From the NCBI GenBank assembly GCA_013044475.1, contig JABEUM010000129.1:1-35669 (forward strand): a stretch of 35,669 nucleotides of DNA, given 5' to 3'. The notes beneath the pieces are model-generated. The model was not told the DNA's origin and ran no database searches. It saw only the letters and a list, made by a program, of their open reading frames with translations. The stretch's first letter is position 1. Every line of letters begins with the position of its first letter. The position numbers and the translations under genes are program-made. Positions 12,809 to 24,102 of this stretch are shown here, in pieces. The DNA comes from Acidimicrobiaceae bacterium (GTDB lineage Bacteria > Actinomycetota > Acidimicrobiia > Acidimicrobiales > Acidimicrobiaceae).

Positions 12809-13834
12809 TCAGCCCCCGGAAATATCCCTAATCGACTTCTTTCCCGCCGACAAGAATGGCATCATCCCACGGAGTTGTACTCCGACGCCCTCGATCTGAT
12901 GGGCATTTGCTTTTGCCCTCAGCTCGTTAAAGTGGACCTGACCAGCTTCGTTCTCAGCTATCCATTCCGAAGCAAACTTGCCGGACTGGATCTCGTCCAG
13001 GACCCTCTTCATCTCAGCCTTAGTCTCCGAAGTCACAATCCTCGGACCGCGGCTCAAACCGCCGTACTCGGCGGTCTCCGATACTGAGAACCACATTCCG
13101 GATAGCCCCTCTTCATAGAGAAGGTCAACGATCAGTTTTAGCTCATGGAGGCATTCGAAGTAAGCCGACTCCGGCTGATATCCCGCCTCGACGAGGGTTT
13201 CGAAGCCCGCCTGAACCAAAGAGGCCAACCCGCCACAGAGCACTACCTGCTCCCCGAAAAGGTCCGTCTCGGTCTCCTCGGAGAAGGTGGTGTCGAGTAC
13301 CCCAGCCTTCGTTGAACCGATGGCGTGTGCATAGGCGAGGGCAAGATCGTGTGCTTTACCCGTAGCGTCCTGGGCTACGGCAATAAGAGATGGCGTTCCG
13401 CCGCCCTCTTGGTAAGTTCTCCTCACCAAGTGACCCGGTCCCTTTGGCGCAATCATGATCACGTCGACATTGTCCGGGGCCTCTATCTGTCCAAACCTAA
13501 CGTTGAACCCGTGGGCAAAGGCTATCGCTACACCTGGGCGCAGATTGGCAACGACATCCTCATCGTAGATCTTTTTTTGCACCGTGTCCGGGGCCAAAAA
13601 CATGATGAGGTCAGCTGACTTGGCGGCTTCGGAAACCGAGACCACACTGAGACCCGAAGCCTTGGCCTTCTCCGCCGAGGCCGAGCCGGGCCTTAACCCA
13701 ACTACAACATCTACTCCCGAGTCAGCCAAATTGAGTGCATGGGCATGACCTTGCGAACCATAACCGATGATCGCCACTTTCTTGCCTTGTAACAGGCTTG
13801 GGTCAGCATCGGCCTCGTAGTACATCTTCGCCAT
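12809..13834 (-). CDS. ilvC: Ketol-acid reductoisomerase
   Basis: [53 protein letters not shown]. Confidence 0.97.
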
Positions 13835-14413
13835 TTAAGACGCCTTTCCTGATTTGGATCTCGCTCTAGTCGGAGCGCTTCGGTCCAACTTCTGCAAAGC
13901 CACCCTACCAGTTCGCTGTATTTCAACGATCGGGTAGGCACCGAGCAGCGCTTCGAAGTCGTCAAGCATCTTGGGAGAACCTGCGAGCATCACCGTTAGC
14001 TTGTCGAAGCCGACATCGACGATCTTGCCGTCGAAGATTCTCACGAGTTCAATCAACTCGGATCGAGTCTCGGAAGAGGTCGAAATACTCCCCATCAACA
14101 GCTCGTACTCTACTGCCTGCGCAGCATTGATCTCAGAGATCTTCAGGACGTTGATCAACTTGTGAAGCTGCTTTGTTATCTGCTCCAAAGGGGCGGATTC
14201 GACGTCAACGACGATGGTGACCCGCGAAAATCTTTCATCTTCAGTCGGAGCCACAGAAAGGGAGTAGATGTTGTATCCCCTCCTCGAAAAGAGCTGTGCA
14301 ATGCGGGCTAGTACACCCGATTTATTCTCGACCAACACCGACAAGACGTGGTGTTTCGCCTCCAAATTGGTCCTATTGCCCCCCATGGGGACCACCGAAC
14401 TCGAAAAGGTCAC
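13835..14413 (-). CDS. ilvN: Acetolactate synthase small subunit
   Basis: ACT domain [48 protein letters not shown]. Confidence 0.96.
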
Positions 14414-16128
14414 TTTCTCTCCATTTCTTGTGGTCCGATGACGATCTCGTCATTTGTCTTGCCCGCTGGCACCATCGGAAATACCTTTTCCCAAGTGTCT
14501 GTCCTAAAGTCGATCACGACCGGACGGTCATTTATCGAATTTGCCTTCTCGATAGCGACTTCGACCTCATCGGCGCTGTCGACCCTAATCCCGACGCATC
14601 CCATCGCCTCGGCCCACTTGACGTAGTCAGGGAGGTCAGGGGAGAGGTATACCTCGGAATAGCGCTGGTCGTAGAACATCTCCTGCCACTGCCTCACCAT
14701 CCCCAAGTAGGCGTTATTTAGGATGGCCACCTTGATCGGGATCCTCTCAGCGGTAGCGGTTACGAGTTCCTGTGCAGTCATCTGAAAACAGCCGTCTCCG
14801 TCAATCGCCCAGACCACCTTGTCCGGCCTGCCGACCTTTGCACCAAGCGCCGCTGGAACAGCAAAGCCCATAGTCCCAAGTCCACCCGAATTCACCCAGG
14901 TGTTTGGGTGGTTGAACTTCCAAAACTGTGACGCCCACATCTGATGCTGACCAACCCCAGAAACCACGATGGTGTCTGGTGGCGCCATCTGCCTCAACCT
15001 CTCGATGACATATTGCGGCTTTAGCGGACGACCGCCTGGGTCCTGGTTGTAGCTCAACGGATACTTTTCACGCCAGGTGTCAAGCTCGGCTATCCACGGT
15101 TCTAACTGGCTCTTAAGATCGACCTTGAGCTTCTTGATCTCCCTGGTCAACTCGGGAATCACCAACTTCAGATCCCCAACAATCGGGACGTCTGGGTTTC
15201 TGATCTTGCCGAGTTCGGCGGGATCGATATCGACGTGGATGACCTTGGCATAGGGGGCAAAGCCTGCGACATTGCCAGTGACACGATCGTCAAAACGTGC
15301 CCCCAAGGTAATCAGTAGGTCGGACTTCTGCATCGAAGTCACCGCCGTGTAGTTGCCGTGCATACCTGGCATCCCGAGGCAAAGTGGGTTGTCGTCTGGG
15401 AAGGCCCCCCTCGCCATTAGGGTCGTCACGACCGGTATTCCACAGTGCTCGGCCAGAGCCAAAAGCTCTTTGGTCGCACCCGCTCTTAGCACGCCGCCCC
15501 CGACGTAGAGGACCGGGCGAAGCGACTTCGAGATCAGCTTTGCCGCCTCCTGGATCATCTTTGGATGGCCCTTGAGCGTCGGCTTATACCCCGGAAGGTC
15601 GACACTCTCGGGCCAGTACCACTCCATAGCCTGGTTTGAGACGTCCTTCGGCAAGTCAATCAGGACGGGACCGGGTCGGCCGGTCGTGGCGACGTGAAAA
15701 GCCTCCCGGACGACCGTTGGGATCTGCGAGGCATCGGTAATCAACCAGTTGTGCTTGGTAACGCTCATCGTGATTCCGGTAGTATCGGCTTCTTGGAAGG
15801 CATCGGTGCCAATCAAGCTCGTTCCGACCTGCCCGGTGATCACCACCAGCGGGATCGAGTCCATGTAGGCGTCGGCAAGGGCGGTAACGATATTCGTGGC
15901 CGCCGGTCCCGAGGTGACCATCGCAACACCCGGACGACCCGTGACGTGCGCATAGCCTTCTGCTGCGTGGCCAGCACCCTGTTCGTGCCTTACCAAGATA
16001 TGCCTGATGGTCGAGTCCAAAAGTGGGTCATAAACCGGAAGAATCGCCCCTCCGGGAAGTCCAAATATAACCTCGACCTGCTCCATCTCAAGACTTTTGA
16101 TCAGCGCCTGGGCACCTGTCAGTTGCAT
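14410..16128 (-). CDS. ilvB: Acetolactate synthase large subunit
   Basis: [66 protein letters not shown] upstream. Confidence 0.97.
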
Positions 16129-16329
16129 CTTGCTGACTCCTCAAAGCTAGAACTTCGGCCCCAATCTGGGTGCCGTCTCACTGCACTCGATCGCCATTCA
16201 CCTGCGATCTACCCTTTTTCCACCGAAGTTTCGGTGGACACAATCAACACACGGCGGCTCTCGTCCAAAGACCCTAGAGCCTCCTCGGACTAAAGACGAA
16301 ACGAACCACTTTTGGTGCGGATAAACAAA

Positions 16330-16354
16330 AAGACCTCCCCGAGGGGGAGGTCTT
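16330..16354 (-). terminator. Intrinsic terminator/attenuator upstream of ilvB
   Basis: Perfect 11-bp stem AAGACCTCCCC-CTC-GGGGAGGTCTT followed on the minus strand by TTTGTTT. Confidence 0.9.
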
Positions 16355-16378
16355 GTAGCGCACCGGGTGACCCGCTAC
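16355..16378 (-). promoter_or_regulatory. Second hairpin in the ilv leader (pause/antiterminator candidate)
   Basis: GTAGCG ... CGCTAC stem with inner GGGT/ACCC complementarity, directly between the leader peptide stop and the terminator. Confidence 0.6.
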
Positions 16379-16379
16379 G

Positions 16380-16421
16380 CTACGAAGGAAGTACTACGAT
16401 CTCTGAGGCGAAATTTGCCAT
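16380..16421 (-). CDS. ilv operon leader peptide MANFASEIVVLPS
   Basis: ATG GCA AAT TTC GCC TCA GAG ATC GTA GTA CTT CCT TCG TAG. Consecutive Ile-Val-Val-Leu codons immediately 5' of hairpin + terminator + ilvB. Candidate -10 TAGTAT at 16428-16433. Confidence 0.8.
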   Translation of the reverse strand: MANFASEIVVLPS

Positions 16422-16451
16422 GGGGATATACTAGACGCTAACAAAACGCCT

Positions 16452-18161
16452 CTAGGCTCCGGTAACGGCACCTATTTCAGCTCCTTTGACTAATTTTGCA
16501 TACTTTGCCAAAAATCCTCGTGTATATTTCGGCTCTGGATGGGTTACTCCCGCCTGCCTATCAGCAAGTTCTTTCTCGTCAACCACCAGATCGAGGGTGT
16601 GCTTTTCGACATCGATGACTATCTTATCTCCGTCTTTTACCAGGGCGATTGGTCCCATATCGACCGCTTCTGGCGAGACGTGGCCGATACACAGGCCATG
16701 AGTTCCCCCGGAGAATCGCCCGTCGGTGACTAGTGCCGAGTCGGCACCCCTGCCTGCACCCTTCATCGCACCCGTTACTGCGAGCATCTCACGCATGCCG
16801 GGACCGCCCTTTGGTCCCTCATAGCGTATTACTACGACGGTGTTTGGCTGGATTTCGCCTGCGAGGATGGCGTCCAATGCCGCTTCCTCACCGTTGAATA
16901 CCCTCGCAGTCCCCTCAAAGTAGTCGACGTCGATTCCGGCAACTTTTACGACCGAGCCCTTCGGCGCTAGCGACCCGGACAAAATAGCGATGCCGCCGAC
17001 TTTATGGATCGGGTTGTCAAGGTCATGGATCACGACCCCGTCGGGCTTAGGTGGCTTAACTGCGTCGAGGTTCTCCCCCATTGTCTTGCCGCTGACGGTT
17101 AGCGCATCAAGATTGAGTAATCCTCGGCTAGCCAATTCCTGCAGAACTACCGGAATTCCCCCGATCGCTTCAATATCGCTCATATGAAACTTTCCGTGTG
17201 GCTTCGTGTCGGCGATATGGGGAACCCTCTTGGCGATCCGGTTGAAGTCGTCCAACGTCAGATCGACTTCCGCCTCATATGCGATCGCCATCAGGTGGAG
17301 CACCGCATTGGTCGATCCACCTAGCGCCATGACCGCCGAGATAGCATTCTCAAAGGCGGCCTTGGTTAGGATCTGCCTCGTAGTGATCCCTTCTACCAAT
17401 AGATTGACCGCCATCTCCCCGGATAGGAAGGCAAAGTCCGTCCGCTTCCTGTCCACCGCCGGGGCCGAGGCCGATCCGAGGATGCTCATTCCGAGGGCCT
17501 CGGCGACCGAGGCCATGGTATTGGCGGTAAACATGCCGCCACAGCTACCGATAGTTGGGCAGGCATTCCTCTCGATTAGCGAGAGTTCTTCGTCGGTCAA
17601 TGCCCCAGCAGAGTAGGAACCAACCGCTTCAAAGACATCCACCAGATCGATCGACTTGCCGTTTAGATGGCCCGGCAGGATCGTTCCGCCGTAGAGAAAC
17701 ACCGAGGGCACATTCGATCGAGCTGCCGCCATCAACATACCCGGGAGCGACTTGTCACATCCAGCGAGGGTGACCATCGCGTCAAACCCCTCTGCGTGCA
17801 TCATCGCCTCCACCGAGTCGCAGATTATCTCCCGAGAGACCAGGGAGGCCTTCATCCCCTCAAAACCCATAGAGATGCCATCGGACACTGCAATTGTGGA
17901 GAACTCAAATGGGTAGCCACCCGCTTTGCGAATGCCCATCTTGGCATGGCGCGTCAGCTCTGCGAGGGACATGTTGCAAGGGGTTACGTCGTTGAAGGAA
18001 GACGCTACGGCCACTTGTGGCTTTTGGAAGTCTTCGTCCTCCATTCCAACCGCCCTCAACATCGCCCTGGCCGGTGCCCTGCGGTACCCGTCAGTTACGA
18101 CCTTGCTCGATGGCCTCTTTTCCGAAAGGTCCCGATTCTGGTTCAATCTCACCACTCCCAA
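16452..18161 (-). CDS. ilvD: Dihydroxy-acid dehydratase
   Basis: [65 protein letters not shown]. Confidence 0.96.
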
Positions 18162-22510: not shown

Positions 22511-22744
22511 CTATAGACGATGGATTGGCTGAGAGCTGGGCGGGTAATGGATCAAAAATGCGAGTGTCGGACATAACCTCTCGGCTTTCCTTGCGTGATC
22601 CAAAAGTTCTATAGGAAGGTCTTCGTGCACAATCTTTGGGTAGCCCCAGTCATCCAAGTGGATCAATTCGGGCAGAAGCTCGGCACAAATTCCGTGTCCA
22701 TCACAAGCAATCGGGTTGATCGCTATCTTGGCTATCGGCTTCAA
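22511..22744 (-). CDS. Ferredoxin with CxxHxxC...CP motif (3Fe-4S/atypical 4Fe-4S type)
   Basis: INPIACDGHGICAELLPELIHLDDWGYPKI...ERLCPTLAF. ATG overlaps the stop of the upstream NuoF-like gene. Confidence 0.85.
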   Translation of the reverse strand: MKPIAKIAINPIACDGHGICAELLPELIHLDDWGYPKIVHEDLPIELLDHARKAERLCPTLAFLIHYPPSSQPIHRL

Positions 22745-24102
22745 TTCAGCCTCAGCCTCTCGTATTTAGTCCCAGAAAAGTTAGGACGGCCTTTGCTAAA
22801 CGAACACCTGCTGGATTCATGGAGCCTTACCTCGTCAGCGAAGTTTTTCATTACCGACCTAGTTATAATTATCGCCCCATCCGGCATGGCACAGCCACCG
22901 CGTCCGACTATCTGATCGGCAAGACGACCGATCTCCTCCACCCCTTTTGGCATTGCGGCACCGTGGGCCAAGCGACCGATCTCCTTGGCGAGAGCAGGAA
23001 GGCCGAGAAAGCACGGGCCGCACTGACCCGCCGTTTGCGATGCGAGGTATGCGACTATTCCTGAGGCTTCCACCAATGGACAAGCCGAAGAGAAGCCGAT
23101 GATTCCGGCCCCTACTCCGAGGCCCAATCTTTTCATTTCGGGCTGATTTAGTTTCAGATCGACGATCCGATCTGGCTGTACGATCTGTCCGAAGTAGCCT
23201 CCCATCAAAACCGAACTAGCCGCTGTGATATCGACTTGTGCGTAGTTAACTATCTCACTGATGGGCGTGCCAACCTCGGCCTCTACGACAATGTAGGCAC
23301 CATTGTGCGACACGATGGTCAAGAGCTGAGATCCATACGGCCCTCCTTGCACTCCCATCGAGCGATAAAAGGACGGCCCGGATCGCGCTATCAGGGCTAT
23401 CGTTGCATAAGTCTCGACGTTTGAGATAAAAGTTGGCTTCCTCGAAACGCCTGTGGCGATGGGCCGATCGGGGAAGTAAGCGGGTTTTGGGCCCTTCCCA
23501 TTGAGCTGCTGGATAATAGAGGTCTCTACTCCGGAGGTATATCCGGGATCGGCAATCCTGGGTGTCACCGGGACCTTGTCCAACCTCAATTTTCTACGCT
23601 CCCTAAGGGCCGCTTCGACAGCAGACACCACCATCTGATTCTTGGTCTTCGCCATAAGGTAAGCCTTCGACGCCCCTAGGGCGCCAGCGACTATTGCTAT
23701 CCCCTCGAGGACCAGATGAGGCTGGTGGATTAGCAGGGATTCGTCTTTATGCGCAAGGGGTTCCGACTCAGACCCATTAGCTACGACGATTGATCTCCCT
23801 ACGTACGACGCCATCGAAGCCAGTTTTTTGGCGGTAGGAAAACCCGCTCCTCCGCGCCCGCTCAACCCTGCCTCGTCCAACATCTCGACGAGTGACGCGA
23901 AGTCGACCTTGGGCATTCGCAGATCTCCATGGGCCCTTAGGTGATCGGGAAAGCTCATAGATCGCTGCGGCATGACTCGGATGGAACCCGCCGCTTGTAC
24001 CTGCGAGACGACTAGACCTGGCCAGTTTGTAAATGTAGAAGACACCTGGCTACTCATACTAAGACACTCCATTTGGTAACTGATATCTGCCTTGTTGCGC
24101 AA
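22741..24102 (-). CDS. NuoF-like NAD(P)H-binding flavo-iron-sulfur protein (NADH:ubiquinone oxidoreductase 51 kDa subunit-like)
   Basis: GLSGRGGAGFPTAKKL, VANGSESEPLAHKDESLLIHQPHLVLEG, GQCGPCFLGLPAL, GRGGCAMPDG. Confidence 0.88.
   Translation of the reverse strand: MRNKADISYQMECLSMSSQVSSTFTNWPGLVVSQVQAAGSIRVMPQRSMSFPDHLRAHGDLRMPKVDFASLVEMLDEAGLSGRGGAGFPTAKKLASMASYVGRSIVVANGSESEPLAHKDESLLIHQPHLVLEGIAIVAGALGASKAYLMAKTKNQMVVSAVEAALRERRKLRLDKVPVTPRIADPGYTSGVETSIIQQLNGKGPKPAYFPDRPIATGVSRKPTFISNVETYATIALIARSGPSFYRSMGVQGGPYGSQLLTIVSHNGAYIVVEAEVGTPISEIVNYAQVDITAASSVLMGGYFGQIVQPDRIVDLKLNQPEMKRLGLGVGAGIIGFSSACPLVEASGIVAYLASQTAGQCGPCFLGLPALAKEIGRLAHGAAMPKGVEEIGRLADQIVGRGGCAMPDGAIIITRSVMKNFADEVRLHESSRCSFSKGRPNFSGTKYERLRLN

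Follow-up and report, generated by a model that had tools for sequence, protein, structure and literature searches.

The gap between ilvD and ilvB in an Acidimicrobiaceae bacterium contains a short leader element which, judging by sequence comparison, is not confined to the single site described in the first-pass annotation of this DNA; it belongs to a class-wide family covering several branched-chain amino acid (BCAA) operons. It is likely that the element is a BCAA-responsive attenuator that acts on ilvBNC through its translated leader. A more specific reading can be offered only tentatively: in this family, which is spread over Acidimicrobiia and, by matches to a covariance model, also occurs in other Actinomycetota, a footprint-sized hairpin at the stop codon (P1) may serve as the sensor and control the intrinsic terminator (T) by proximity, without a base-sharing antiterminator.

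Leader element and its start

The window, which is the whole analysed stretch of 35,669 nucleotides, carries on its minus strand the gene order gatC-gatA-gatB-ilvD-leader-ilvB-ilvN-ilvC, where NCBIfam equivalogs confirm gatCAB, ilvD, ilvB, ilvN and ilvC. The parts of the region are listed in Table 1. The sequence bears out the first-pass annotation in the positions of the short ORF, its ATC-GTA-GTA-CTT codons and TAG, in the 11-bp terminator stem with its T-rich tail, and in the TAGTAT box ending 6 nt before the ATG. The first hairpin is also present, but the limits given for it earlier (16355-16378) were slightly too short, and the fold extends it to 16383, stop codon included. T lies directly 3' of P1. 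The fold energy of 16420-16326 is -44.8 kcal/mol versus -26.2 +/- 3.2 kcal/mol for shuffled sequences (z -5.8; 0/200 shuffles).

Table 1. Features of the ilvD-ilvC region in the window.
Feature	Position	Strand	Basis
ilvD (dihydroxy-acid dehydratase), upstream of the attenuator	16452..18161	-	NCBIfam PRK00911/TIGR00110 above cut-off
-10-like box TAGTAT, 6 nt 5' of leader ATG (predicted leaderless transcript)	16428..16433	-	Sequence, comparison of 136 leaders
Leader peptide ORF MANFASEIVVLPS*, 13 aa, ATG 16421-16419	16380..16421	-	Sequence; BCAA-rich leader kept in relatives
Control codons ATC GTA GTA CTT for Ile-Val-Val-Leu, positions -6 to -3 relative to the stop	16389..16400	-	Sequence, GTA statistics
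Stop codon TAG of leader ORF, foot of P1	16380-16382	-	Sequence
Hairpin P1, 12 bp in two parts, stop codon included	16355..16383	-	Fold, covariation, footprint geometry
Intrinsic terminator hairpin T, 11 bp	16330..16354	-	Fold, covariation
T-rich tail TTTGTTTA of terminator	16322..16329	-	Sequence
Spacer between terminator and ilvB	16129..16321	-	Length about 18 to 230 nt among relatives
ilvB (acetolactate synthase large subunit)	14410..16128	-	NCBIfam PRK07789/TIGR00118
ilvN (acetolactate synthase small subunit)	13835..14413	-	NCBIfam equivalog
ilvC (ketol-acid reductoisomerase)	12809..13834	-	NCBIfam equivalog

The search of the window with the families of Rfam 15 (T-box, ppGpp riboswitch and others) gave no match at the gathering score. 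The best weak match was Phe_leader, a leader with a similar terminator, with 27 bits against a cut-off of 55. The spacer 3' of the terminator is mildly stable only (z -2.1), and a T-box or riboswitch within these 200 nt was rejected for want of an Rfam match. The spacer includes a perfect hairpin, TCCACCGAAACTTCGGTGGA, at window positions 16219-16238 (minus strand), followed by AAAAG, and a spacer of 180-200 nt between terminator and ilvB is conserved in the genus of the window. Elsewhere in the window, a NuoF-like protein (22741-24102, minus strand) scores well below the NCBIfam cut-offs.

A good -35 hexamer for the leader promoter was not found in the window sequence. When the leader start was taken as the nearest ATG or GTG giving at least nine codons, the end of a YANNNT box lay 6, 7, 8 and 9 nt upstream of it in 25, 25, 26 and 29 of the 136 leaders compared, which makes up to 105 leaders, versus about two for each other position. 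A Shine-Dalgarno-like motif lies before 14 of the 136 leader starts, as against 88 of 108 ilvB starts. Because of this -10 spacing and the scarcity of Shine-Dalgarno sites, the leaders look leaderless and initiation would take place on leaderless mRNA, as the first-pass annotation had guessed. The ilvL leader of S. lividans has been reported to be leaderless (PMC8079986) and that of C. glutamicum ilvBNC nearly so (PMC11857589).

Conservation and product-matched codons

The ilvB loci were taken from 30 relatives and 80 named genome contigs. Upstream of ilvB the relatives possess a BCAA-rich ORF, with the start of P1 lying 0-4 nt away from the first base of its stop codon. The relatives' ORFs were picked by BCAA content, hence the ORF itself is a selected feature, and the structure and gene-specific tests are independent of that choice. 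In the first alignment of 75 distinct leaders, which was not model-fitted, 92% of cells pair, with two-sided changes at 13 of 16 pairs. The covariance model R1, built from ilvB leaders only, matches 100/100 Acidimicrobiia ilvB loci searched (training rows included), and in the R1-fitted alignment of 100 loci 96% of cells are paired and two-sided changes occur in 14 of the 16 base pairs, a result reached by 0/500 shuffles. A match at E <= 0.01 was obtained for 257 of 296 genomes in the class-wide sample. The BCAA codons before the stop, together with P1 and T, persist 5' of ilvB across the whole class. This is the conservation in relatives on which the earlier proposal had been made to depend, and the presence of the element in about 100 relatives rules out a chance origin.

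In the phylum-wide sample R1 matched 78 of 247 genomes, 59 of these being outside the class. Fifteen out-of-class loci were inspected, and 13 of them precede ilvB, one precedes cimA and one is truncated by the contig end. The same tandem is seen before ilvB in other Actinomycetota classes (L163-L180, with L174 preceding cimA). In one relative (G005, loci L017 and L042 upstream of ilvB) the GACCTCCC-GGGAGGTC terminator is kept and P1 and the BCAA run seem to be gone; the leuA leader of this relative (L203) is intact. Four Acidimicrobiia-type ilvB genes with leaders (L062, L063, L075 and L079) are on contigs titled Acidobacteria/Acidobacteriota, Bifidobacterium breve or Thermoanaerobacterales, and these record labels are probably wrong.

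R1 further detects 44 leaders upstream of leuA, leuB or cimA. When 35 further matches were fetched from 40 relatives, 33 were placed just upstream of leuA, leuB or cimA, one upstream of ilvB, as checked by protein identity, and one was left unassigned. The exception, L204 (G039:C228:20620-20718), adjoins none of the BCAA genes tested and has no clear leader stop. The genome of the window itself contains a second match (G000:C165:17258-17350, minus strand, L149; E 9e-5) with the leader MQRVLRFNVAIVIIS before leuB-ilvE-cimA. A third, weak match there (G000:C168, E 0.285) was taken as chance, since it has no adjoining BCAA gene. The region before trpE was checked in 30 relatives, and none of them has a Trp leader built in this way.

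The codons of these sister leaders follow the products of the pathways. All 19 leuA leaders have Leu at -2 and -3, and Ile is absent from their last six codons; all eight cimA leaders have Ile at -2 and -4, and the 17 leuB leaders have Ile/Val, with Leu absent from the last six codons of both groups. In the 90 ilvB leaders the last six codons comprise 41% Val, 24% Leu and 8% Ile. The differences are pronounced both for Ile between cimA and leuA leaders (p=5e-18) and for Leu between leuA and leuB leaders (p=1e-25). The cimA leaders L151-L154, L156, L181, L190 and L219 end in Ile runs, e.g., IIIIR or IIIIS. Citramalate synthase supplies isoleucine only, and LeuB also works in the citramalate route, so control of cimA and leuB by Ile makes sense. 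This match of codons to products supports the BCAA attenuator reading of the first-pass annotation. Among Val codons, GTA accounts for 71.5% in ilvB leaders versus 4.4% in the downstream ilvB genes (odds ratio 55, p about 1e-146). It is present in 92 of 94 ilvB leaders and its commonest position is codon -4 (73 of 94).

Footprint geometry and proposed control of the terminator

Two features of an attenuator are recognisable in the sequence, namely a leader ORF with end-product codons, predicted to be translated, and a predicted intrinsic terminator between the leader and the structural gene. The geometry of P1 was compared with a ribosome footprint of 26 nt, the size used for M. tuberculosis (PMC13236596). 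The 5' arm of P1 ends +12 to +13 from the stop codon, equalling the ribosome's leading footprint in size. With the ribosome on the stop codon, 98-100% of this arm is masked; with the ribosome on codons -2, -3, -4 or -5, the masked share is about 60%, about 30%, 2-7% or zero, respectively. It follows that P1 would be free with a stall at -4 or upstream and blocked once translation finishes, and, since its 5' arm is masked at the stop codon and free at codon -4, P1 is probably the sensor in this footprint model.

In the proposed mechanism, the supply of charged BCAA-tRNA, chiefly of the Val-tRNA reading GUA, controls ilvBNC through ribosome-mediated transcription attenuation. Transcription would begin at the leader AUG or immediately upstream of it, and the ribosome would load onto the leaderless mRNA. 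When BCAA are plentiful, the ribosome at UAG is computed to cover the 5' arm of P1; P1 would not form, T would fold and transcription would stop. When BCAA-tRNA is short, the ribosome would stall at codons about -5 to -3, leaving P1 wholly or largely free, and the folded P1 against the 5' side of T may hinder T, so that RNA polymerase would read into ilvBNC. The chances that P1 acts in this last step as the ON hairpin seem roughly even. The hindrance would arise from P1 abutting T within or close to the RNA exit channel, and it is taken as steric or kinetic since the search for an alternative pairing with T gave none. With codons matched to the products, the same device would serve leuA, leuB(-ilvE-cimA) and cimA.

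The mutually exclusive structures that the first-pass annotation had suggested looking for were not detected by duplex energies, covariation or partition-function folding. Duplex energies of both arms of T against the leader and P1, with a mononucleotide-shuffle control, gave the 5' arm no conserved partner: mean z was +0.8 for the 92 ilvB leaders and lay between +0.3 and +0.9 for the three sister families. The E. coli positive controls gave z of -5.2 (thr), -2.1 (leu), -1.9 (trp) and -0.8 (his) for complementarity to the terminator 5' arm; the E. coli ilv leader was left out, having no terminator under the rule used. In the leader families examined, no complement to either terminator arm was found within the leader or P1. 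APC-corrected mutual information over 100 leaders revealed no third covarying helix, and the strongest covarying column pairs all belong to one of the two hairpins, P1 and T, the latter showing clade effects. In partition-function folding T is predicted to form with a probability of about 0.97, with means of 0.90-0.98, whether P1 is free or masked. Thus, the base-sharing antiterminator that trp/leu/ilv-type attenuators need for the classical 2:3/3:4 switch was not found here. The link from P1 to T rests on inference, as no partner of T and no third helix were found and T is predicted to form whether or not P1 is masked.

Among the alternatives, it is possible, if rather unlikely, that P1 joins T in a composite double-hairpin terminator, where a stall at -3 or -2 would block P1 and cut termination, with the same sensor and the opposite role of P1. 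The gap between P1 and T is only 0-6 nt in all 136 leaders, and hairpin clusters have been proposed as terminators (PMC8355165). Many leaders also have control codons at -3 and -2, where a stalled ribosome would part-mask P1, by about 60% of its 5' arm at the latter codon, which counts against the main reading. However, the commonest GTA position in ilvB leaders leaves P1 free, and a fed-state ribosome on the stop codon would block P1 too, until its release.

It is less probable still, and indeed doubtful, that attenuation is classical and relies on a mutually exclusive antiterminator that is species-specific and was therefore missed by the comparative search. Published descriptions or models of such structures exist for C. 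glutamicum (PMC11857589), for the ilvB-II motif of Corynebacterium (PMC10272879) and for ilvB1 of M. tuberculosis (PMC13236596), but in the leaders studied here upstream complementarity to the 5' arm of T is not enriched and, if anything, is depleted, and an extra covarying helix is absent.

The reading of the element as a plain terminator of ilvD, preceded by a short ORF that arose by chance, which its position 30 nt after ilvD in the window genome might suggest, is refuted for the family by comparison: 21 of 94 ilvB leaders lack an ilvD gene over the 1.4 kb or more of DNA available upstream, the codons, stop position, P1 and -10 spacing are conserved, and the design recurs before leuA, leuB and cimA. 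It is plausible, as was proposed earlier, that the attenuator uncouples ilvBNC from ilvD, and 46 of these 94 leaders are right after ilvD. As improbable as an ordinary ilvD terminator is a ligand riboswitch or T-box in place of a translated leader, despite the ppGpp riboswitches preceding some ilvB genes (noted in PMC10272879) and the translational T-boxes of Actinobacteria (PMC1262725), since an Rfam match is absent and product-matched codons sharing one reading frame that ends at a fixed stop require translation.

Relation to known attenuators

Ribosome-mediated BCAA attenuation is already known in Actinobacteria (PMC1262725, PMC10272879, PMC11857589, PMC13236596). The ilvB leaders of Corynebacterium, Mycobacterium and Streptomyces (Seliverstov 2005, PMC1262725) share with those of Acidimicrobiia a BCAA-rich short ORF, a terminator and the ilvB operon, but their ORFs overlap the terminator, whereas in Acidimicrobiia the stop codon opens a separate P1, which is followed by T. 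That survey did not include Acidimicrobiia and reported no leuB or cimA leaders. The literature searched, with partial coverage, yielded no attenuators in Acidimicrobiia or before cimA. The same survey relates that codon changes in the S. coelicolor ilvB leader left regulation unaffected, which is counter-evidence to the proposed mechanism.

The C. glutamicum ilvBNC attenuator and Corynebacterium ilvB-II (PMC11857589, PMC10272879) resemble the present elements in the near-leaderless leader, the CUU/GUA control codons, the two hairpins and the terminator. Their antiterminator shares terminator bases, and none was detected in Acidimicrobiia leaders; nor was the alternative pairing of the terminator (P2a) shoulder with the P1 loop, known from ilvB-II, seen there. 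The attenuator of M. tuberculosis ilvB1 (PMC13236596) has LVVI control codons with GUA, like the Acidimicrobiia ilvB leader, and its response to BCAA limitation, lost on codon change, was shown experimentally. It has a 166-nt leader with a modelled antiterminator, and a tandem of P1 and T with P1 beginning at the stop codon was not described for it.

The LEU element found before leuA in most Actinobacteria has a Leu-run leader ORF, as do the leuA leaders of Acidimicrobiia. It has been described as a pseudoknot in which Leu codons pair with the Shine-Dalgarno box, other attenuator elements being absent (PMC1262725), whereas the Acidimicrobiia leuA leaders have P1 and a terminator. The E. coli trp, thr, leu and his attenuators share the control codons, the stop codon near the switch hairpin and the intrinsic terminator; complementarity to the terminator 5' arm is clear in thr, leu and trp and weak in his, in contrast to Acidimicrobiia leaders, where none was detected.

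The missing antiterminator poses a testable question, namely whether a terminator can be switched by a hairpin with which it has no bases in common. The rise of GTA from 4% to 72% of Val codons is a clear example of how a single rare codon is used as the sensor. The leaders found here make up a computed BCAA attenuation regulon (ilvB, leuA, leuB-ilvE-cimA and cimA) for a large, mostly uncultured actinobacterial class, and their product-specific codons make the logic of this regulon readable from sequence.
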